Source of the DNA: a virus
DNA: 33,102 bases
Reading direction: 5' to 3' (one strand)
IMG/VR virus record: IMGVR_UViG_3300044646_001371
Span: 1-33,102 of that record
This document shows positions 3,816 through 22,066 of the stretch, one piece after another. The notes beneath the pieces are model-generated. The model was not told the DNA's origin. It ran no database searches and saw nothing but the letters and a program-made list of their open reading frames with translations. The stretch's first letter is position 1. Every line of letters begins with the position of its first letter. The position numbers and the translations under genes are program-made.

Positions 3816-5954
3816 ATGATAAAATTAGGAAATAGCGGGATATTATTAAAGGTAGGTAGCCAGGATGTGCAATCAGCATATCTTGGTTCTACTTTAGTTT
3901 ATTCTGCTTCCACAACAACAACGAGTACTACAACAACTACTACATCGACTACATCTACCACAACCACAACTGCAAATCCAATACCATCAGGTGCATACGC
4001 ATTCTATGATTTTGGAAATGTAACATCTTATCCAGGTTCAGGTAGTACTGTATTCGATATAAGTGGAAATAGTAATAATGGTACATTAGTAAACTCACCA
4101 ACATTTAGTTCAACTTTTGGTGGTGAATTAAGATTAGATAATGCTAGTTCTCAAAGAATAGATTATTCAGCATCATTCACACCTGATACATCTGTTGTTG
4201 TTATTTGGAAAAACGTAGATTCAACATTCTCAAAAGATACAGGTTTTCCAGATGCAACATTTGCATATGGTATTAAGTACGCACCATTAGCAGCAACTAA
4301 AGGATATACACCTATATTGATGAGTAATTTAGGTGTAGGTAATACATACTTTGATGCAGAAGTAACCGCAACTGATATTACACAATGGCATCAATGGGGA
4401 TGTGTTGTAACATCATCAGGAACAAGCTCAACTGCAACTAACTATTTAGATGGAAATGCTTCTTCTGCAACTGAAACTAAATCATTTGATAGAAGTGGAA
4501 CATCGGGTAGCGGAACTGCATATTTAGGATGGGATAGTGCAGTAGGTGATAGATATGCTAATGGATATTTAATGGCTTATTTACAATATAATAGAGCGTT
4601 AACTACATCTGAATTGAATAGTATATACACATATTATTCAGCTAGATTTGGTGGTGGTACAACAACTACTACAACTACTGCAGCACCGACTACAACGACA
4701 ACAACAACAACCGCAGCTCCAACAACGACTACGACTACAACAGCTGCACCGACAACAACAACCACAACTCTGGCTAACGCTTGTTACAACCAAACAACTG
4801 TTACCTTTACATCAGATGATAACGTAAACTTTAGGTTTGGTTATACTTCATGTGATGGTACTCAATCTACATTAGGTGGAAGTACTCTAACGCCGGGTTC
4901 ATTTACATTTGATAGTTCTTATTGTATAAGAGCTGGTGAAGTGGTTGCTGCACCTTTGGGTGAAGGTACTGTGGTAACTGGCGTATCGCAAACTAGTCAA
5001 TGTGGAACTTTCACAACAACCACAACGACTACAACTGCCGCACCTACTACAACGACTACAACTGCAGGACCGACTACAACAACAACTACAACTGCAGCAC
5101 CGACAACAACTACAACTACTTTAGCTAGTTTTACAGTTGAATATTATTTAGTTGCTGGCGGTGGCGGTGGAGGCCGTTTAGGTGGAGGCGGTGCCGGTGG
5201 CGGTATTGTTTCAGGCTCTGCTACAATTGTGCCAGGTGTAGTCTATTCATTAACAGAAGGTGCAGGTGGATATACAGCTCAAAGTGGTAGTGCAACTACC
5301 GCATTTGGAGTAACTGCAATAGGTGGAGCAGCTGGCGGTGGAACTAATGGAGCTGCTACATCGGGAATGGCTTATGGTGGAGGTGGTAGTGGTAATACAG
5401 ATACATCAATACAAACAGGCTCGATAGGAGTATATGGATATAATGGTGGTGATGGTAGCTTCGCATTAGATACAAATGGTGGTGGAGCAGGTGGAGCTGG
5501 TGATGGATTTGATGGAGTAAGCGGAAGTTCAGGTAATGGTGGAGTACCTCTTTATATACCATACTTAAATAATAATGTACAATTATATATGAGTGCATCT
5601 TCAGGTGGTGGTGGAGCAGCAACCTTAACATCAACCAGAGGAGAAGGTGGTACATTAGATAGTAGTACCGGATTAGGTAATGGAGGAGTTTATAATTCAG
5701 TTGGACAAGATGGGTTTTGGCCGGGCGGTGGAAGTGGTGGACATAGTTCTAATGCAACAACAATTAATAGATGGGGAGCAATGGGATATATACAATTTGT
5801 ATATGATGGACCAATAAAAACTAATCTAGCCATAACAGGTTCAGGTGCAATACAAAATTATAACTCATCTGTTGATAAGACTTATGTAAGATTGATTCCT
5901 CCAGTATCCCCAACAAATGGTAGTAGTTACACTTGGACACTACAATATGGATAA
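3816..5954 (+). CDS. Modular tail adhesin: anchor, LamG-like domain, Thr-rich linkers, Gly-rich C-terminus
   Basis: 712 residues. Residues 1-31 carry a short segment (VKVGSQDVQSAYLGSTLVY type) that I know as an N-terminal module of Bacteroidetes phage tail proteins. Thr-rich linkers at about 33-52, 282-318 and 400-435 separate the domains. Residues about 55-275 look like a LamG/concanavalin-type jelly roll (YAFYDFGN..., DISGNSNNGTL, LRLDNASSQ, LAYLQYNRALTTSELNSIY-like end), often carbohydrate binding. Residues about 320-398 form a small Cys-containing domain. Residues about 440-712 are extremely Gly-rich (LVAGGGGGGRLGGGGAGGG), like polyglycine receptor-binding tips. The gene starts one base after the fibre stop. 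A role in binding host glycans is inferred. Confidence 0.7.
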   Translation: MIKLGNSGILLKVGSQDVQSAYLGSTLVYSASTTTTSTTTTTTSTTSTTTTTANPIPSGAYAFYDFGNVTSYPGSGSTVFDISGNSNNGTLVNSPTFSSTFGGELRLDNASSQRIDYSASFTPDTSVVVIWKNVDSTFSKDTGFPDATFAYGIKYAPLAATKGYTPILMSNLGVGNTYFDAEVTATDITQWHQWGCVVTSSGTSSTATNYLDGNASSATETKSFDRSGTSGSGTAYLGWDSAVGDRYANGYLMAYLQYNRALTTSELNSIYTYYSARFGGGTTTTTTTAAPTTTTTTTTAAPTTTTTTTAAPTTTTTTLANACYNQTTVTFTSDDNVNFRFGYTSCDGTQSTLGGSTLTPGSFTFDSSYCIRAGEVVAAPLGEGTVVTGVSQTSQCGTFTTTTTTTTAAPTTTTTTAGPTTTTTTTAAPTTTTTTLASFTVEYYLVAGGGGGGRLGGGGAGGGIVSGSATIVPGVVYSLTEGAGGYTAQSGSATTAFGVTAIGGAAGGGTNGAATSGMAYGGGGSGNTDTSIQTGSIGVYGYNGGDGSFALDTNGGGAGGAGDGFDGVSGSSGNGGVPLYIPYLNNNVQLYMSASSGGGGAATLTSTRGEGGTLDSSTGLGNGGVYNSVGQDGFWPGGGSGGHSSNATTINRWGAMGYIQFVYDGPIKTNLAITGSGAIQNYNSSVDKTYVRLIPPVSPTNGSSYTWTLQYG
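3912..3971 (+). repeat. Thr-rich tract 1 (adhesin)
   Basis: Residues 33-52 are almost all Thr with a few Ser. The codons mix ACA, ACT, ACG and ACC rather than repeating one triplet. Confidence 0.9.
4659..4769 (+). repeat. Thr-rich tract 2 (adhesin), TTTTTTTAAP units
   Basis: 37 residues of Thr runs separated by AAP, linking the LamG-like domain to a small Cys-containing domain. Confidence 0.9.
5013..5120 (+). repeat. Thr-rich tract 3 (adhesin)
   Basis: 36 residues of Thr runs separated by AAP or AGP, leading into the Gly-rich C-terminal domain. Confidence 0.9.
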
Positions 5955-14754: not shown

Positions 14755-17109
14755 ATGGCTCAGATAATACCAATCAAAATACCTACTTATATATCAGCAG
14801 CAGATTTTGCTCCTGCTAGGGTATTACCACGTTTATTATATTATAACGGATTGGTTGAGTGTGAAAATTTCTATATAGAAAGTGGCTCGCTTACAAGGTC
14901 AGGTGTGGTTAAAGAAGAAACCGCATTTCCATATTTTGATAACTACAATGTAGTAACAGGAAGTTTTCCGAGTGCAGGTTCTGATTCACTTTTATTTAAT
15001 AATGAAGGAGCTGCATATGGTGCTTTACCAACTGGCAGTTTATATACAAAGTATTGGGAAACATATATAAATTTATTATATAATCCAACTACGAGATTAT
15101 TGAATTGTGATGCAATAATTCCATTAGCTGATTATTTCAATATGGAATTGAATGATATAGTAGAGTTCAGAGGAAACTACTATCATCTTCGTGCAATCAA
15201 TGATTACAATTTAAAAAATGGTGAATGTAAGATTCAGTTATTAGGCCCAATATTAGAAGATGCATTACAACTTGCTAACCCAGGTTGTAACTTTGGATTT
15301 ATATTAGAGCAAGTAGCAGGTACAACAACTACCACTACAACAACAGCTGCTCCTACTACGACTACTACCACTACTACGGTAGCACCAACTACGACTACAA
15401 CAACTGCTGGTGGAACTACGACTACAACTACGGGCGGACCAACTACTACAACTACTACGTTTAGTAACAACCCTTGTAATTGTGTTGAGATTAATCTAAC
15501 ATCAGAAGGTGGTGAAGTTGCGACATTCAACTGTTATGGACAGAATGAGAATTATGTTTATATGACAGGTGGTACTAAATACTTATGTGCAGCTGTAATA
15601 GGTGGATTATTGCAAGTATCAATTGTATCAGGAACAGGAACCTTCTCACCTATTGGTAATTGTAAGACTGGAGCATGTCCTCCGGCAACTACGACTACAA
15701 CTACGACTACTGCAGCACCTACTACTACTACGACTAGTACAACAACTACTACATTAGGTCCGACTATATTCAGAGCAGCTAACTGCCAGGATATTTTCGA
15801 CTTTAATACATACCAAGCGTTTGTAACATCTTCACTACAAGTTGGTGATGTATTACAAGATGCTTTTGGAACTTGCTACTCAATTTTAAACTTTGATGGT
15901 GAAGTGCCAGTAGGAACATTAACATATGTTGGAGGCTCAGGAAGTTGTGGACAGGCACCTTGTGTTACTACAACTACAACCGCAGCACCATTCTGTAATA
16001 CTTGGGAAGTAAGTAACGCAACAGGCGCAGGATACTACATCAAATACAAATATTGTGGAGATACGACATTCTCTTACCCAGAAATACCTGCATCTTCTAC
16101 GAGAACATTCTGTGTTCAAAATAATCAGATATTCAACGCATTTGGTGCACCATTAACATTTACTAATTTAGGTATAACTTGCTCCGCTACGACTACTACA
16201 ACTACGACTACCGCAGCACCTACAACTACAACTACTACGACTAGAGCACCTTATTGTTCTATTTGGACAGCTGAAAATGCATTTGGAGCTGGATATACAA
16301 TCAGATACAAATATTGTGGTTCAGTTGATAATACGTTTGTAGAAGTTCCACCATTTACTACTATTAGTTTATGTGTACAAAGTGGTGATATATCTAATTT
16401 AGGTAATCCAATTGTATTAACTGAAAGTAGTGCAAGTTGTATAGCAACGACTACAACAACAACAACAACGGCTGCACCGACTACGACAACCACAACTACA
16501 AGAGCACCTTATTGTTCGTTCTGGACTGCAAGTAACGCATTTGGAGCTGGATACAATATTCAATACACTTATTGTGGAGCAACAGGTTCGACATTTGTAG
16601 AAGTTCCTGCTAACACATCAATTATACTTTGTGTTCAATCAGGTCAAATTAGTAATTTAGGTAATCCAATCTTATTAACTGAAGATAGTGGAAGTTGTAT
16701 AGCAACAACTACAACTACTACGTTGGCTCCTACGACTACTACAACTACATTGCCAGTAGGATGTTTCATCTACGATGTAACTAACAACGGAGCAGGTTCT
16801 GCATTCTTCGATTACCAATATTGTAATGGTGGATATATCCGTGAAGATTTAGCAGGTGGTGGAGCATCGACAAGTGTTTGTGTGTTGAATGGTAATATCA
16901 GTTCTTCATACGCACCAATGGTAATCACTTTCACAGGTGTTCCGTGTGTAACATCAACTACGACTACAACTTCTACAACTACAACGACTACTTTACCTCC
17001 GTTTAGTAATCCTTGGACTGCAGATGCTTGGTTTGATACATCAGGTTTAAGTTTCGAAGTTGAATACTATAATACAAATAATTCATTCACATCATCAATA
17101 ATAAGTTAA
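14755..17109 (+). CDS. Hub C-terminal-like domain fused to a mucin-like array of Cys modules
   Basis: 784 residues. Residues 1-189 are a folded domain (ARVLPRLLYYNGLVECENFY, YWETYINLLYNPTTRLLNCD, IPLADYFNMELNDIVEFRG, YYHLRAINDYNLKNGECKIQ) that looks like the missing C-terminal part of the preceding hub gene. From residue 190 onward seven Thr-rich tracts separate small domains of about 60-70 residues. Three or four of these are copies of one four-Cys module (C-x3-W-T-x-N-A-F-G-A-G-Y...). The result is a bead-on-a-string rod reaching out of the baseplate. Role in adhesion or host-surface contact is inferred. Confidence 0.65.
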   Translation: MAQIIPIKIPTYISAADFAPARVLPRLLYYNGLVECENFYIESGSLTRSGVVKEETAFPYFDNYNVVTGSFPSAGSDSLLFNNEGAAYGALPTGSLYTKYWETYINLLYNPTTRLLNCDAIIPLADYFNMELNDIVEFRGNYYHLRAINDYNLKNGECKIQLLGPILEDALQLANPGCNFGFILEQVAGTTTTTTTTAAPTTTTTTTTVAPTTTTTTAGGTTTTTTGGPTTTTTTFSNNPCNCVEINLTSEGGEVATFNCYGQNENYVYMTGGTKYLCAAVIGGLLQVSIVSGTGTFSPIGNCKTGACPPATTTTTTTTAAPTTTTTSTTTTTLGPTIFRAANCQDIFDFNTYQAFVTSSLQVGDVLQDAFGTCYSILNFDGEVPVGTLTYVGGSGSCGQAPCVTTTTTAAPFCNTWEVSNATGAGYYIKYKYCGDTTFSYPEIPASSTRTFCVQNNQIFNAFGAPLTFTNLGITCSATTTTTTTTAAPTTTTTTTRAPYCSIWTAENAFGAGYTIRYKYCGSVDNTFVEVPPFTTISLCVQSGDISNLGNPIVLTESSASCIATTTTTTTTAAPTTTTTTTRAPYCSFWTASNAFGAGYNIQYTYCGATGSTFVEVPANTSIILCVQSGQISNLGNPILLTEDSGSCIATTTTTTLAPTTTTTTLPVGCFIYDVTNNGAGSAFFDYQYCNGGYIREDLAGGGASTSVCVLNGNISSSYAPMVITFTGVPCVTSTTTTTSTTTTTTLPPFSNPWTADAWFDTSGLSFEVEYYNTNNSFTSSIIS
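15322..15459 (+). repeat. Thr-rich tract 4
   Basis: Residues 190-235 of the protein at 14755: Thr runs broken by AAP, VAP, AGG and GGP. It begins the mucin-like part. Confidence 0.9.
15688..15753 (+). repeat. Thr-rich tract 5
   Basis: TTTTTTTTAAPTTTTT followed by STTTTT, between two Cys-containing domains. Confidence 0.9.
15967..15981 (+). repeat. Short Thr tract 6
   Basis: Only five Thr codons before AAP and the first four-Cys module. Confidence 0.85.
15982..16182 (+). repeat. Four-Cys module, copy A
   Basis: About 67 residues from AAPFCNTW to the fourth Cys. Shared pattern with other copies: C-x3-W near the start, GAGY, YKYCG, a Cys in the TFCVQ segment and a last Cys. This copy is the most diverged of the W-containing ones. 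Confidence 0.8.
16189..16242 (+). repeat. Thr-rich tract 7
   Basis: TTTTTTTTAAPTTTTTTT between module copies A and B. Confidence 0.9.
16243..16440 (+). repeat. Four-Cys module, copy B
   Basis: RAPYCSIWTAENAFGAGYTI at the start, ending at SSASC. It is closely related to copy C at DNA level too, which points to recent tandem duplication of module plus linker. Confidence 0.85.
16447..16500 (+). repeat. Thr-rich tract 8
   Basis: Same amino-acid pattern as the tract at 16189, but with different Thr codons at many positions. Confidence 0.9.
16501..16698 (+). repeat. Four-Cys module, copy C
   Basis: RAPYCSFWTASNAFGAGYNI at the start, ending at DSGSC; nearest relative is copy B. Confidence 0.85.
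16705..16749 (+). repeat. Thr-rich tract 9
   Basis: TTTTTTLAPTTTTTT before a diverged module (16750-16947, starting LPVGCFIYDV) that keeps four Cys but lacks the Trp. Confidence 0.9.
16951..16992 (+). repeat. Thr-rich tract 10
   Basis: TSTTTTTSTTTTTT, followed by a last ~39-residue domain. Confidence 0.9.
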
Positions 17110-17110
17110 T

Positions 17111-18349
17111 ATGGCATTGCAGAAATTAATAGGAGGACCTGATTGGGATGTTGTAACGAATCCAGACTCGGCTAGATATGCTGATTTTCACTACTTTATT
17201 TTGTCAGGAAGTACTGAAAGAAGTAATCCGTGGAATTCACCATCAACACCAATAGCAAAGGTTTTAAACGTAAGTAATGTAACCGCAAATTCGGTTGTAG
17301 CAAACTACGTCTCTTCCTCTGGCGAATTAACAAATGTAATATTAACTTCCGGCTCAACTGCACAAATTACATCACAAACTATCCCATTGGGTTTAGATAA
17401 TACCGCATGGTTAAGTGCGAGTATCGTTTCGGACTTTACGGGTAGTGTAACTGCAAGACCTACGGGAAGTAGATGGTTTGAATTAGAATCTATTAGAAGT
17501 ATTTCACAAGATACTTTTGTATATACTATTGCTGATGGGGCAACTACAATTACGAGAACTAACACAGGTCAACCTTCCGTTGGTTCATTAAGATATAGAT
17601 GTAGTAGAACAATACCTTATGTTGATAATGGATGGTGGATTATAAGAGATTTATATGATTGTTCAGGTGGAACTACTACTACAACAACAACTACCACAAC
17701 GACTACTACGACTACATTAGCTCCTACAACAACTACAACTACTGCAGCTCAATTCTGTAATGTTTGGACTGCAAGTAACGCATTTGGTGCAGGATATACA
17801 ATTAAGGTTAAGTATTGTGGTGATACAACATATTCATTCCCAACTGTTCCACCAAATAGTTCAATCTATGTGTGTGTTCAGAATGATGATATTACAAATA
17901 ATGGTAATCCAATTACGTTGACAAGTTCATCAGTTGCATGTTCTGGTAGTATAATAACTACTACAACAACAACAGGTGCACCTACAACTACTACGACTAG
18001 TACTACGACTACTACGACTAGTACAACAACGACTACCACAACAGCAGCACCGACAACAACGACTACTGCAGCACCAACAACAACAACAACTTCTACTACT
18101 ACTACGACTACATTAGCATCACAAAAGTATTATGTTGAAAGTTGCGCTCAAGAAGATGGAGGACCTGTTTTATCTGGTATAATTGAAATTACAAACGCAC
18201 CTTTATTAACTTCTAAAATAATTAAAGTTAATACACCTGTTGTAGGTTATTCTTGCTTCCAAGTATTCAGTACTTCAACAGGAACTATATCATTGGGAAC
18301 TCGTAGTGTAACTAACATTTATACTGATTGTGTGGATTGTACGGATTAA
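17111..18349 (+). CDS. Mucin-like tail protein with one four-Cys module
   Basis: 412 residues. Residues 1-187 form a folded N-terminal part (PDWDVVTNPDSARYADFHYF, then beta-rich segments and RCSRTIPYVDNGWWIIRDLY) that I do not recognise. A Thr tract (188-211), a four-Cys module (about 212-277) closely matching those in the previous protein, and a longer Thr tract (283-334) follow. The C-terminal ~78 residues contain paired Cys and end in YTDCVDCTD, a module seen at the ends of other Bacteroidetes phage tail proteins. It starts one base after the previous stop and is probably part of the same tail-tip assembly. Confidence 0.65.
   Translation: MALQKLIGGPDWDVVTNPDSARYADFHYFILSGSTERSNPWNSPSTPIAKVLNVSNVTANSVVANYVSSSGELTNVILTSGSTAQITSQTIPLGLDNTAWLSASIVSDFTGSVTARPTGSRWFELESIRSISQDTFVYTIADGATTITRTNTGQPSVGSLRYRCSRTIPYVDNGWWIIRDLYDCSGGTTTTTTTTTTTTTTTLAPTTTTTTAAQFCNVWTASNAFGAGYTIKVKYCGDTTYSFPTVPPNSSIYVCVQNDDITNNGNPITLTSSSVACSGSIITTTTTTGAPTTTTTSTTTTTTSTTTTTTTAAPTTTTTAAPTTTTTSTTTTTTLASQKYYVESCAQEDGGPVLSGIIEITNAPLLTSKIIKVNTPVVGYSCFQVFSTSTGTISLGTRSVTNIYTDCVDCTD
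17672..17743 (+). repeat. Thr-rich tract 11
   Basis: Fifteen Thr in a row, then LAP and six more, ahead of the four-Cys module. Confidence 0.9.
17744..17941 (+). repeat. Four-Cys module, copy in the second mucin-like protein
   Basis: AAQFCNVWTASNAFGAGYTI at the start, ending at SSVAC. It is closer to copies B and C of the preceding gene than those are to copy A. Confidence 0.85.
17957..18112 (+). repeat. Thr-rich tract 12 (longest)
   Basis: 52 codons of Thr runs broken by GAP, AAP and single Ser. Confidence 0.9.
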
Positions 18350-18384: not shown

Positions 18385-19068
18385 ATGGCTGATGTATATT
18401 TTGTAGTAACTTTAACTAACGCTGAAGCAGGTTCAGGACCAAGCTATGATGCATTCTATTCAAATGATTGTGTTACCTATTCGCCTGCTATACCTGCTAC
18501 TGTGTTTCTACCATCAGTCGGTTCTCAATCTACGATAACAATACCAGATACTGCACAATGTGTAAGATTGACAAATATAAATTCAAATTGTAATAATAGT
18601 GTAACTTCATCAGTAACACCAACTACTACAACAACAACTACTGCAGCGCCTGTAACTACAACTACTACTGCGGGTGGAACTACTACAACTACAATACCTC
18701 CAACTACAACAACTACTACTCAAGTTGTAACATTCAATTGGAATTTTACCGAAGGTAATGGTGCAAGTGGTGAAATGATTTTATATATAAATGGTAGTGT
18801 AGTTGAAAATAGATTTAATACATCAAACGGAACATACTATCTTCTTCCAGGTGATACTATAAGTTGTGAAGTTATAACTACTGGTTGTACTTCACCTAAT
18901 GGAAAAGCTAACTCATATAGTATAGGTAGTAAGCCAGTATTAACTGATGCAGCTTGTTCTAATGGAAGTAGTAATATATTTACTCCTACATATACTGTGG
19001 TTAGTGGCGATTTAGGAACTACAATAACTTTATCAATGTATTCTATTTGTGATAGTGCCTGTGTGTAA
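18385..19068 (+). CDS. Mucin-like tail protein, two Cys-containing domains joined by a Thr tract
   Basis: 227 residues. The N-terminal ~78 residues are a beta-rich domain with Cys pairs (YDAFYSNDCVTYSP, DTAQCVRLTN, NSNCNNS). A Thr tract (80-112, broken by AAP, AGG and IPP) leads to a C-terminal ~115-residue domain with several Cys (SCEVITTGC, DAACSNG, YSICDSACV). No known enzyme motif is seen. It is the last tail-tip gene before the sugar-modification cassette. Function is inferred as a surface-exposed fibre component. Confidence 0.6.
   Translation: MADVYFVVTLTNAEAGSGPSYDAFYSNDCVTYSPAIPATVFLPSVGSQSTITIPDTAQCVRLTNINSNCNNSVTSSVTPTTTTTTTAAPVTTTTTAGGTTTTTIPPTTTTTTQVVTFNWNFTEGNGASGEMILYINGSVVENRFNTSNGTYYLLPGDTISCEVITTGCTSPNGKANSYSIGSKPVLTDAACSNGSSNIFTPTYTVVSGDLGTTITLSMYSICDSACV
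18622..18720 (+). repeat. Thr-rich tract 13
   Basis: 33 residues of Thr runs broken by AAPV, AGG and IPP; mixed ACN codons. Confidence 0.9.
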
Positions 19069-19111: not shown

Positions 19112-20077
19112 ATGGAAAATGGCATTAAAATAGTTATGAAGAATTTAAGATTCGTATGTGCACAGCCGGCAACACTTTATTACGCTTGGCAAGTAGAAGT
19201 AATGTTAAACAATTTCATTGAGATGGGTGTTAACCCTAACAATGTAGATATTGTTTGTTGGAAACAAAATGGTGTAGTACCTGAAGAATGGAGTAAGTTA
19301 GCATCTGGCTATCCCGCTCGATTCTTTTTTTATGATGACACGAGAGAAACCAAACATTACATTTCATCAATCAGACCCAACATCCTTAAACAACATTGGT
19401 TAGCTCATCCTTATTTAAAAGATGAAGCAATCTTCTATCACGATTCTGATATCATATTTTCCAAACCTATTTCGGAATGGATTAGTGAAGATATTAGAGA
19501 TGATGAACAATGGTATGGTTCAGACACCCGTTGGTATATAGCACATTCTTACATAGTTGGTAAAGGTCAGCAGATAATCGATAAGATGTGTGATATTATG
19601 GATTTGCCAGAATCGTTGATTATAGACAACGAAATGAACGCAATCGGTGCGCAGTACTTAATGAAGAATGTAGATTATGAATATTGGAATAGAGTAGAAA
19701 TCGATTCAGAATTACTATTCAGACAAATTACTGATTTAAACAATCAAATAAAAGCAGAAACTCCTTCTTATCACGAACTACAAATATGGTGTGCAGATAT
19801 GTGGGCTGTATTGTGGGGAGCATGGAGAAGAGGATGGAAAACAAATTGTTTGCCAGAATTTGATTTTAGTTGGGGAACATCTACCGAAGATGATTTTTAC
19901 AAAATGAATATAATGCATAACGCTGGTGTAACATCACCAATACAAGGACTTTTTTATAAAGCTGAATTTATGAATTCACTTCCTTACAATGCTGAATTAA
20001 ATGTAAATGATAAGAGCGCAAGTAAAAAATATTGGGAATGGATTCAAAGAACTGCACAAAAAAGTAAATTGTTATGA
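19112..20077 (+). CDS. GT-A type glycosyltransferase
   Basis: 321 residues. The segment EAIFYHDSDIIFSKPISEW (about 105-123) contains the D-x-D motif (Asp111-Ser-Asp113) that binds the metal and nucleotide-sugar phosphate in GT-A transferases. FVCAQPATLYYAWQVEVML near the N-terminus fits the nucleotide-binding half, and MHNAGV with a later YWEWI segment the acceptor half. There is no signal peptide or membrane segment, so it acts in the cytoplasm. An internal ATG at 19136 (MKNLRF) is an alternative start. Its stop overlaps the next start (ATGA). Donor and acceptor are unknown; the adjacent Thr-rich tail proteins are a plausible acceptor. Confidence 0.7.
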   Translation: MENGIKIVMKNLRFVCAQPATLYYAWQVEVMLNNFIEMGVNPNNVDIVCWKQNGVVPEEWSKLASGYPARFFFYDDTRETKHYISSIRPNILKQHWLAHPYLKDEAIFYHDSDIIFSKPISEWISEDIRDDEQWYGSDTRWYIAHSYIVGKGQQIIDKMCDIMDLPESLIIDNEMNAIGAQYLMKNVDYEYWNRVEIDSELLFRQITDLNNQIKAETPSYHELQIWCADMWAVLWGAWRRGWKTNCLPEFDFSWGTSTEDDFYKMNIMHNAGVTSPIQGLFYKAEFMNSLPYNAELNVNDKSASKKYWEWIQRTAQKSKLL

Positions 20078-20697
20078 TAAAATTAGATTACAACACCCAA
20101 ACATACCCATTTTTAGAGGTATTAGGGTTGATTTATGCTACAAAAGAGTTGAACATGCTACATAAGCAGTATCAATTCGACTTATTGAAAAGAGAAAACG
20201 ACCAAAAAACTGAAATACATAAAAAATACTATGATAATTTTCAGTATATTAAACCTATCTACGATGATTTTGTAAAAGAACAAATCATGCCATTGTATGG
20301 TGAGCCTGTTGTTTATCAAAAGATACCAACATTCAGAATACAAGCTCCAAATAATGTAGGAGTGGGTGAGTGGCATAAAGATAGACAATACAACCATAAC
20401 CAAAATGAGATAAATTTCTTTTTACCTTTTACTGATGCTTTCGATACGAATACTATTTGGGCAGAGAGTGAAGAAGATAAAGGTGATTATTCTCCAATAG
20501 AAGCTCGCTACGGACAGTTTGTTATCTGGGAAGGTGTTCGGTTAACTCACGGAAATAAACTCAACCAAACGGATGTGAGTAGGGTTTCTGTGGATTTTAG
20601 AATAGTTCCATTAAGTAAGTGGAGTGTGCAAGAGGGTGAAGCGATTAATACAAAGGTAAAATTTGACATTGGAGGATATTACGAATTATGCAAATAG
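20074..20697 (+). CDS. Fe(II)/2-oxoglutarate-dependent dioxygenase
   Basis: 207 residues. The facial triad is visible as His101-x-Asp103 (GEWHKDRQYNHN) and His159 (RLTHGN), with Arg170 or Arg176 (VSRVSVDFR) placed to bind 2-oxoglutarate. The pattern is that of the phytanoyl-CoA dioxygenase/StrG-like branch, which hydroxylates small molecules or sugars. It overlaps the glycosyltransferase by four bases and the methyltransferase by ten, so the three are translated together. The substrate is not predictable; a sugar or a protein side chain are both possible in this context. Confidence 0.75.
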   Translation: MIKLDYNTQTYPFLEVLGLIYATKELNMLHKQYQFDLLKRENDQKTEIHKKYYDNFQYIKPIYDDFVKEQIMPLYGEPVVYQKIPTFRIQAPNNVGVGEWHKDRQYNHNQNEINFFLPFTDAFDTNTIWAESEEDKGDYSPIEARYGQFVIWEGVRLTHGNKLNQTDVSRVSVDFRIVPLSKWSVQEGEAINTKVKFDIGGYYELCK

Positions 20698-21212
20698 AAA
20701 AAATAACATCAGAGAACCCTGAAATCCATTGGAGATTTCTAAATTGTGAAAACAAAATTGTAATGGACATGGGTTGTTCATTTTGGGATAGTACTTGGCA
20801 CGATGATTGGTTATCATCATCTGAATACTTTGTATCTAAAGGAGCAAGTAAATTGATTGGATTCGATTGTGCTGCACACGATATTGAAAAGTATCATCAG
20901 TTGTATGGTAACGATGGAAAGTATTATACATTCCAATTATGCGTTAACGCTAATGAGCAAATAGAAGATTTATTAGAACATTACAAACCACATGTTATCA
21001 AATGTGATATTGAAGGTGCTGAAATACACTTTCAAAATGTTACAAAAGAAATGATTGAGTTTGTAGATGAAATAGCAATTGAATATCACAATGACCCAAC
21101 TCGTATTTTGTGTGAACAAAAGATGGTTGAATGGGGATTTACTAACCATCAACTTTATCAATTAGGTAACGAAGATATAAACAGAGTAGGAGTATGGCAT
21201 CTATGGAGATAA
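20688..21212 (+). CDS. FkbM-like SAM-dependent methyltransferase
   Basis: 174 residues, short for the family. IVMDMGCSFWDS (about 24-35) is a motif I nucleotide-binding loop in which the usual Gly-rich pattern is partly replaced. LIGFDCA (57-63) is the acidic motif II. KCDIEGAEIHF (105-115) with a later DEIAIEYHN is the signature of FkbM-type methyltransferases, which O-methylate sugars. The missing C-terminal part of larger relatives may reflect a minimal phage version. It overlaps the next gene by 19 bases. O-methylation of a sugar added by the neighbouring transferases is the natural inference. Confidence 0.7.
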   Translation: MQIEKITSENPEIHWRFLNCENKIVMDMGCSFWDSTWHDDWLSSSEYFVSKGASKLIGFDCAAHDIEKYHQLYGNDGKYYTFQLCVNANEQIEDLLEHYKPHVIKCDIEGAEIHFQNVTKEMIEFVDEIAIEYHNDPTRILCEQKMVEWGFTNHQLYQLGNEDINRVGVWHLWR

Positions 21213-22066
21213 TTAAAGCAGAGTATGGTGGTAAAGATTGTACAGAACAAATCCGTAGCAGAGTTGTAAACGGAAGATTATTAGTTCGTGCAGATAACAA
21301 CATATGTGGCGACCCGGCAGTAGGTGTTGTTAAGTATCTTAAAATAGATGCTGAAATAGATGGTGAAACTTTTACCGAAGAAGTAAGAGAAGGCGCTTTA
21401 CTTACTATGCCAAAGCCTAAAACAAATCGTTTAGGTATATTCTACTCAAACAATATAAACGAAAAGATATACCCAGCTATACGTGCATCATTAGAAAGTA
21501 TTCGTAAAGCAGCAGAGGGTAAAGCAGATATTTTGACTTGTATGTGGAGACACGAACCACATAATCCATTTTACGAATGTATTGCATGGACACAAACATC
21601 ATCACATTTGAATCAAATACTGCAAGTTTTACAATTACTATACACAGCAAAGCAAAGTGGTGATTACAAATATGTAAGTTTTTTAGAGCATGATTTAGTT
21701 TATGCTGAAGGATATTTTGATTACCCTGATTTTGATGAAGGTATTCTTGCTAATATGAATTATATTGGTATGAACAAAGAAGGATTTCAGCCACGTGGTC
21801 AGAATGATAAACCTACATCACAATTGACAATGTTGTTTGAAGATGCAATAAAACATTTTGAATCTCTTTTACCTAATGCGTTAGTAACAAATAGTGGATT
21901 ATTAGAGCCACAATTAAAAATGAATGAGTGGAATGCAGAGCATCCTAACATTCATATTAATCACGGCTCACACTTTACATCGCATTATTCTATTTATAGA
22001 AAAGATAATTTATTTACGGAACATCCTTATTGGGGAAATCATTCCGACTACCTTCACTTATTTTAA
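21194..22066 (+). CDS. DUF3395-like domain fused to a glycosyltransferase-like domain
   Basis: 290 residues. Residues about 4-72 (EIIKAEYGGKDCTEQIRSRV, NNICGDPAVGVVKYLKID, EVREGALLTMP) resemble the DUF3395 / DnaJ-C11 C-terminal domain, which I know next to glycosyltransferase domains in some bacteria and phages. Residues about 78-290 look like a transferase: LGIFYSNNINEKIYPAIRAS, then YVSFLEHDLVYAEGYFDYP with Glu165-His-Asp167 in the place of a D-x-D, and a His-rich C-terminus (HINHGSHFTSHYS). The ATG at 21203 is an alternative start. Last of four overlapping genes. The enzyme class is inferred from the fold pattern; the substrate is unknown. Confidence 0.6.
   Translation: MASMEIIKAEYGGKDCTEQIRSRVVNGRLLVRADNNICGDPAVGVVKYLKIDAEIDGETFTEEVREGALLTMPKPKTNRLGIFYSNNINEKIYPAIRASLESIRKAAEGKADILTCMWRHEPHNPFYECIAWTQTSSHLNQILQVLQLLYTAKQSGDYKYVSFLEHDLVYAEGYFDYPDFDEGILANMNYIGMNKEGFQPRGQNDKPTSQLTMLFEDAIKHFESLLPNALVTNSGLLEPQLKMNEWNAEHPNIHINHGSHFTSHYSIYRKDNLFTEHPYWGNHSDYLHLF

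Follow-up and report, generated by a model that had tools for sequence, protein, structure and literature searches.

Virion self-glycosylation is already known, having been reported from mycobacteriophages: as described in papers citing that work, phage transferases O-glycosylate the C-termini of capsid and tail-tube proteins in Che8 and Corndog (Freeman et al. 2023, PMID 37329881). Corndog carries an O-methyltransferase and transferases among its structural genes (PMC4351075). The system described here resembles that of the mycobacteriophages in that a transferase gene is coupled to capsid and tail proteins with C-terminal Thr tails, whose role as acceptors is inferred, and in that its methyltransferase/transferase group is analogous to that of Corndog. 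It is unlike the mycobacteriophage systems in that the putative acceptors are poly-Thr tracts and the hosts are Bacteroidota and Firmicutes. We observed no homologous transferase in mycobacteriophages (0 Mycobacterium phages among 74 cultured-phage tblastn matches) and no Thr tracts in the Che8 capsid and tail proteins. The literature searched, with subscription papers outside its scope, contained nothing relevant on poly-Thr together with phage glycosylation. It described neither this enzyme family nor poly-Thr as an acceptor nor such a range of phyla, all of which look new, and it did not mention the possible dosing by frameshifting.

The window, i.e. the whole stretch of DNA that was analysed, is a 33,102-base IMG/VR virus record. 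It is siphovirus-like, with portal, tape measure, head protease and terminase recognised in Pfam and PHROG scans. As the nearest relatives of the portal are found in the Nonlabens phages P12024S/L, a Bacteroidota host is likely, judging from this similarity. No membrane flippase or bactoprenol transferase of the gtr type was recognised in Pfam and PHROG scans of the main ORFs of the window, made without membrane-segment prediction. The features relevant to the analysis are as follows.

3816..5954, + strand: putative acceptor in trans; encoded far from the cassette, 8 Thr tracts
14755..17109, + strand: tail protein T1, putative acceptor; N-domain of ~175 aa, then Thr tracts and bead domains
17111..18349, + strand: tail-region protein T2, putative acceptor; Thr tracts and one bead domain
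18385..19068, + strand: tail-region protein T3, putative acceptor; Thr tracts, directly upstream of gene 1
19112..20077, + strand: gene 1, predicted initiating glycosyltransferase; PHROG 4417, GT8/glycogenin-type GT-A fold, DxD at residues 111-113, HNAG at 269-272
20074..20697, + strand: gene 2, 2OG-Fe(II) oxygenase-like, putative glycan or acceptor hydroxylase; EWHKD ... LTHGN ... R, Pfam E=0.06
20688..21212, + strand: gene 3, SAM methyltransferase, FkbM-like, putative sugar O-methyltransferase; MDMGCS and DIEGAE motifs
21194..22066, + strand: gene 4, predicted second glycosyltransferase; ~75-residue N-terminal beta domain and GT2-like GT-A domain (76-287)

The initial annotation had placed four overlapping genes at 19112-22066, right after three tail proteins with Thr tracts. 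This gene content is demonstrated and the coordinates were borne out: consecutive genes of the cassette overlap by 4, 10 and 19 bases, and a gap of 43 bases separates T3 from gene 1. The 13 tracts counted earlier in the three upstream proteins have to be revised to 21 Thr-rich runs. Tracts had also been reported in one further gene, correctly so (the 8 runs in 3816-5954), while the AAP said to punctuate the tracts does occur, but so do VAP, GGP, LAP and LPP. Tract codons are a mixture of ACA, ACT, ACG and ACC. When the window was compared with a close relative, tract codons showed 13 synonymous changes and 1 non-synonymous change versus 72 synonymous and 105 non-synonymous changes in the non-tract codons of the same genes (p=1.4e-4). 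This codon comparison indicates that purifying selection keeps the Thr tracts as amino acids, and selection at that level is counted here among the observations. Identification of the tracts as a DNA microsatellite was ruled out by the mixed codons and the synonymous excess. In 14755-17109 and 17111-18349 a four-Cys domain of ~62 residues, present in five copies, alternates with the tracts in a beads-on-linker architecture.

Gene 1 matches PHROG 4417, a family of unknown function, with E=1.7e-60. Its structure, predicted from 32 relatives with pLDDT 95.8, has its best match in glycogenin (Z 15.1, 220 residues, 3.3 A), with further matches to LgtC, Skp1 galactosyltransferase, UGGT and GlyE (Z 13.2). 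On the strength of this model the fold is a GT-A fold of the GT8/glycogenin type; the GT8-type group around gene 1 includes several enzymes with protein or glycoprotein acceptors (Skp1, the transferases of SRRP adhesins, UGGT). The catalytic motif is observed directly, D111 and D113 of the DxD being invariant in the 32 family sequences, as is HNAG. Gene 1 is like glycogenin and other GT8 enzymes, including the GlyE of pneumococcal serine-rich adhesin glycosylation, in predicted fold and DxD; it is unlike them in that identity over the structural alignment is only 11-13% and a Pfam match is absent. None of the 32 family members matched Pfam GT8 at E<=0.1, and no Pfam model of any kind fitted any of them. 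Gene 1 is, then, GT8-like by fold without recognised GT8 membership by sequence.

None of the four genes reaches a curated Pfam cut-off, and their domain labels rest on motifs and structure. The labels proposed initially survive in part. The GT-A transferase label of gene 1 is upheld by fold and DxD and gains nothing from Pfam. The label of 2OG-Fe dioxygenase for gene 2 has the HxD...H...R motif behind it, conserved in three relatives (L004 and L034 among them), with a Pfam match of only E=0.06, below the cut-off. For the FkbM label of gene 3 there are the DIEG and SAM-binding motifs: the class I methyltransferase motif is kept and DIEG is invariant in 14 relatives, but the match to PF05050 (E=0.05, 14.1 bits) falls short of the cut-off of 22.7. 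Gene 4 had been described as a fusion of a DUF3395-like domain with a transferase, of which the transferase half holds. Residues 76-287 match 6p61 with Z 14.8, and TarP, TarS and hyaluronan synthase with Z of ~13, so that gene 4, as modelled, is a GT-A transferase behind a small beta domain; DUF3395 has to be dropped, as no Pfam family was found in gene 4 at E<=0.1 (the N-terminal domain was given no separate structure search).

The initial annotation was to be considered refuted if cassette and Thr tracts did not co-occur across related phages. For gene 1 this test was passed in a control within the lineage, in a second control with Enterococcus, in named genomes, in cultured phages and in a search run in reverse from Thr-tract DNA, and the self-glycosylation proposed initially is supported. 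For the lineage control the loci were picked by capsid protease, blind to transferase and Thr, and we counted the 60 loci in which the interval from the tail gene tB to the gene of the tape measure protein (TMP) was visible. This interval contained both the transferase and poly-Thr in 15 loci, the transferase only in 2, Thr only in 1 and neither in 42 (Fisher p=4e-11). In L197, one of the two loci with the transferase only, long Thr tracts occur elsewhere in the record; L158, with Thr tracts without transferase, is on a 13-kb fragment. The state of the transferase changes at least 10 times on the capsid protease tree, and in 9 independent contrasts on the tree Thr and transferase changed in the same way in ~8 and in opposite ways in none (p=0.008). 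Among whole records, (ACN)7 was present in 11 of the 13 with the transferase and in 1 of the 20 without it, the single case being an ACC homorepeat. (ACN)7 is absent from the 22-kb record L191, in which the transferase is present. While the N-domain of the tail protein was found in all 60 loci with ~65% identity, the extension behind it is Thr-rich essentially only alongside the transferase. In one clade (L048-L070) the cassette adjoins non-structural genes; (ACN)7 occurs elsewhere in most of the larger records only, and its frame was not confirmed for each.

The coupling of transferase and Thr was observed outside this lineage as well. Among Enterococcus prophages with a common major head protein, the 3 that have the transferase carry Thr tails on both the major head and the major tail protein, while homologous Enterococcus phages without the transferase carry no Thr tails. 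In Lactococcus 1706 a TTTTTTTTTHHD-like tail terminates the major head protein as well as the major tail protein, and the transferase comes after the latter. Named bacterial genomes provided 46 loci with the transferase; we found poly-Thr at 36 of them, in 35 of 46 within 1.2 kb upstream of the transferase and usually as the final residues of the preceding gene; the antisense-strand control gave poly-Thr at 0 of these 46 loci. Thr-rich repeats were situated at or near the transferase in all 15 cultured phages examined, in the form of poly-Thr in 14 of them, and in most of the Firmicutes cultured phages the Thr tails are carried by the major capsid protein, the tail protein or both, in some cases in the -1 frame. 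The transferase belongs to the late structural operon, where it is frequently the next gene behind that of the major tail or head protein. In the fifteenth cultured phage, Lactobacillus phage SAC12B (L410), TTVxP repeats and not extended Thr runs immediately precede the transferase, a pattern hinting at a minimal TT-x-x-P acceptor unit. In SAC12B such repeats were seen on a protein annotated as holin, too.

In the reverse search, seeded by (ACN)8 DNA alone, the transferase was the most recurrent neighbour family and was adjacent in 10 of 11 loci. Still, of the viral Thr loci with at least 3 kb of room downstream, only 9 of 46 had the transferase; therefore, either poly-Thr alone does not suffice or different enzymes act on it. 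A look at other transferase families near Thr tracts without the gene 1 family gave only three weak leads.

It is known that capsid and tail proteins of phages may carry C-terminal extensions made by programmed frameshifting, as in Lactobacillus A2 and Listeria PSA. Similarly, the Thr tail of the capsid protein is in the -1 frame at the stop codon in Planchet (L402), Enterococcus phage 9183 (L103) and VFW (L409), with CCCAAAA at the capsid stop of 9183 and Planchet; what sets these phages apart from A2 and PSA is that the shifted extension consists of poly-Thr and that the transferase gene comes next. From the arrangement of frames, a programmed frameshift producing a minor tagged form of the capsid protein is probable in these three phages. 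In TPWB06 the Thr end of the tail protein itself is followed by a second, longer Thr stretch in a different frame; the picture in PT1-4 is similar. In Lactococcus bIL285 (L100/L213) a TTTTTTRHD tail is situated directly behind the in-frame TAA of the major head gene, and this motif is also found at the end of the major tail protein. Such frameshifted or behind-stop Thr tails suggest that some phages may tag only a fraction of their subunits.

Ten loci in named genomes were without any poly-Thr. Eight of them are chromosomal loci of Bacteroidota, of RiPP/bacteriocin type and not phage, with LanC-like proteins, C39-type peptide exporters and small GG-leader-like peptides (a weak RiPP match) as neighbours. 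Gene 1 thus has cellular relatives inside Bacteroidota RiPP clusters; the cellular forms differ in being longer (509-571 aa), in being mostly fused to a second transferase domain and in having no adjoining poly-Thr tails. These longer relatives (loci L358, L360, L364, L369, L371, L384, L387 and L400) may possibly be concerned with glycosylated RiPPs. The presence of cellular family members in peptide-modification loci provides independent support for a polypeptide acceptor. Of the remaining two loci, one is a 3.5-kb fragment; in the other, from a delta-proteobacterial MAG (L355), the neighbour of the transferase relative is a Ser/Pro repeat protein (PAPESSQPD repeats), which may represent a version with Ser as the acceptor.

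We consider it quite probable that the phage glycosylates its own virion, with gene 1 starting an O-glycan on the Thr tracts and genes 2-4 elaborating it; sugar transfer itself is inferred, as there is no direct glycan evidence. During late gene expression the gene 1 product, a metal-dependent retaining enzyme of GT8 type, would act on polypeptide, moving a sugar from a host nucleotide-sugar to the Thr hydroxyls of the poly-Thr in the phage's own tail proteins; Thr as the target and the identity of the sugar are inferences as well. The second transferase (gene 4) would then extend the glycan, and the methyltransferase (gene 3) and the 2OG oxygenase (gene 2) would decorate it. The Thr linkers might thereby become dense, stiff and protease-resistant glycan brushes between the bead domains, a presumed benefit; of the purposes proposed initially, stiffening, shielding and mimicry all stay possible.

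Because the transferase almost always adjoins coat or tail proteins with Thr runs, and does so in two phyla, a large number of phages probably attach sugars to their own particles. With somewhat less assurance, we favour the view that the members of PHROG 4417 form a new polypeptide O-glycosyltransferase family for poly-Thr tags on virion capsid and tail proteins in phages of Bacteroidota and Firmicutes, kin to RiPP glycosyltransferases, with interchangeable downstream enzymes that yield a phage-specific glycan and, in some phages, dosing by frameshift. If true, phages from two phyla would commonly have glycosylated virions, and a poly-Thr tail with an adjoining PHROG 4417 gene would make a genome signature that predicts glycosylation and can be tested on cultured phages. 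An unannotated protein family would receive a function and the poly-Thr linkers of phage tails an explanation; a compact tool for protein O-glycosylation with a simple acceptor tag would be at hand.

Phage transferases often modify host surface glycans, and the cassette could act there, in superinfection exclusion or serotype conversion, and not on the virion. Methyltransferases and variable transferases would suit surface glycans, and one clade does carry the cassette outside the structural genes; yet we find this improbable given how closely it is tied to Thr-tailed structural proteins in phages that are not related to each other, the position within the late structural operon and the cellular relatives in peptide-modification clusters. 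Co-occurrence alone could also result from joint transfer of adjacent genes, if tracts and transferase travelled as one mobile, recombining module with no enzyme-substrate relation between them. That the coupling holds with distant acceptors (the 3816-5954 gene of the window, a major head gene several genes away, cases in trans) and with non-homologous Thr-bearing proteins across phage backbones, and that Thr codons are under purifying selection, makes such a module about as improbable. As for phage DNA, which many phage transferases modify (PMC12619734), we practically discount it as the acceptor, since the coupling is to protein tracts, the fold is of GT8 type and the neighbours are structural genes.

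Self-glycosylation of the virion could be confined to gene 1, with genes 2-4 directed at host glycans, DNA or small molecules. Indeed, these genes vary: the slots downstream of gene 1 in other phages are occupied by GT2, GT6, GT25 and other DxD transferases, by methyltransferases, an epimerase and a radical SAM enzyme; in Firmicutes phages genes 2-4 are absent, leaving the transferase as the only one of the four beside the Thr tails, and no homologues of genes 3 and 4 were found in cultured phages. On the other hand, the genes overlap in one operon, and in most relatives gene 4 comes after gene 1 with interchangeable glycan enzymes between them, so we regard a division of targets as unlikely, albeit not negligible. 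By analogy, the arrangement looks like that of polysaccharide clusters, a conserved priming enzyme being followed by interchangeable elaboration enzymes; the role of genes 2-4 as such variable enzymes is inferred. A relative of gene 4 was also observed in a large phage contig of 323 kb (L008), which contains 77 (ACN)7 matches.
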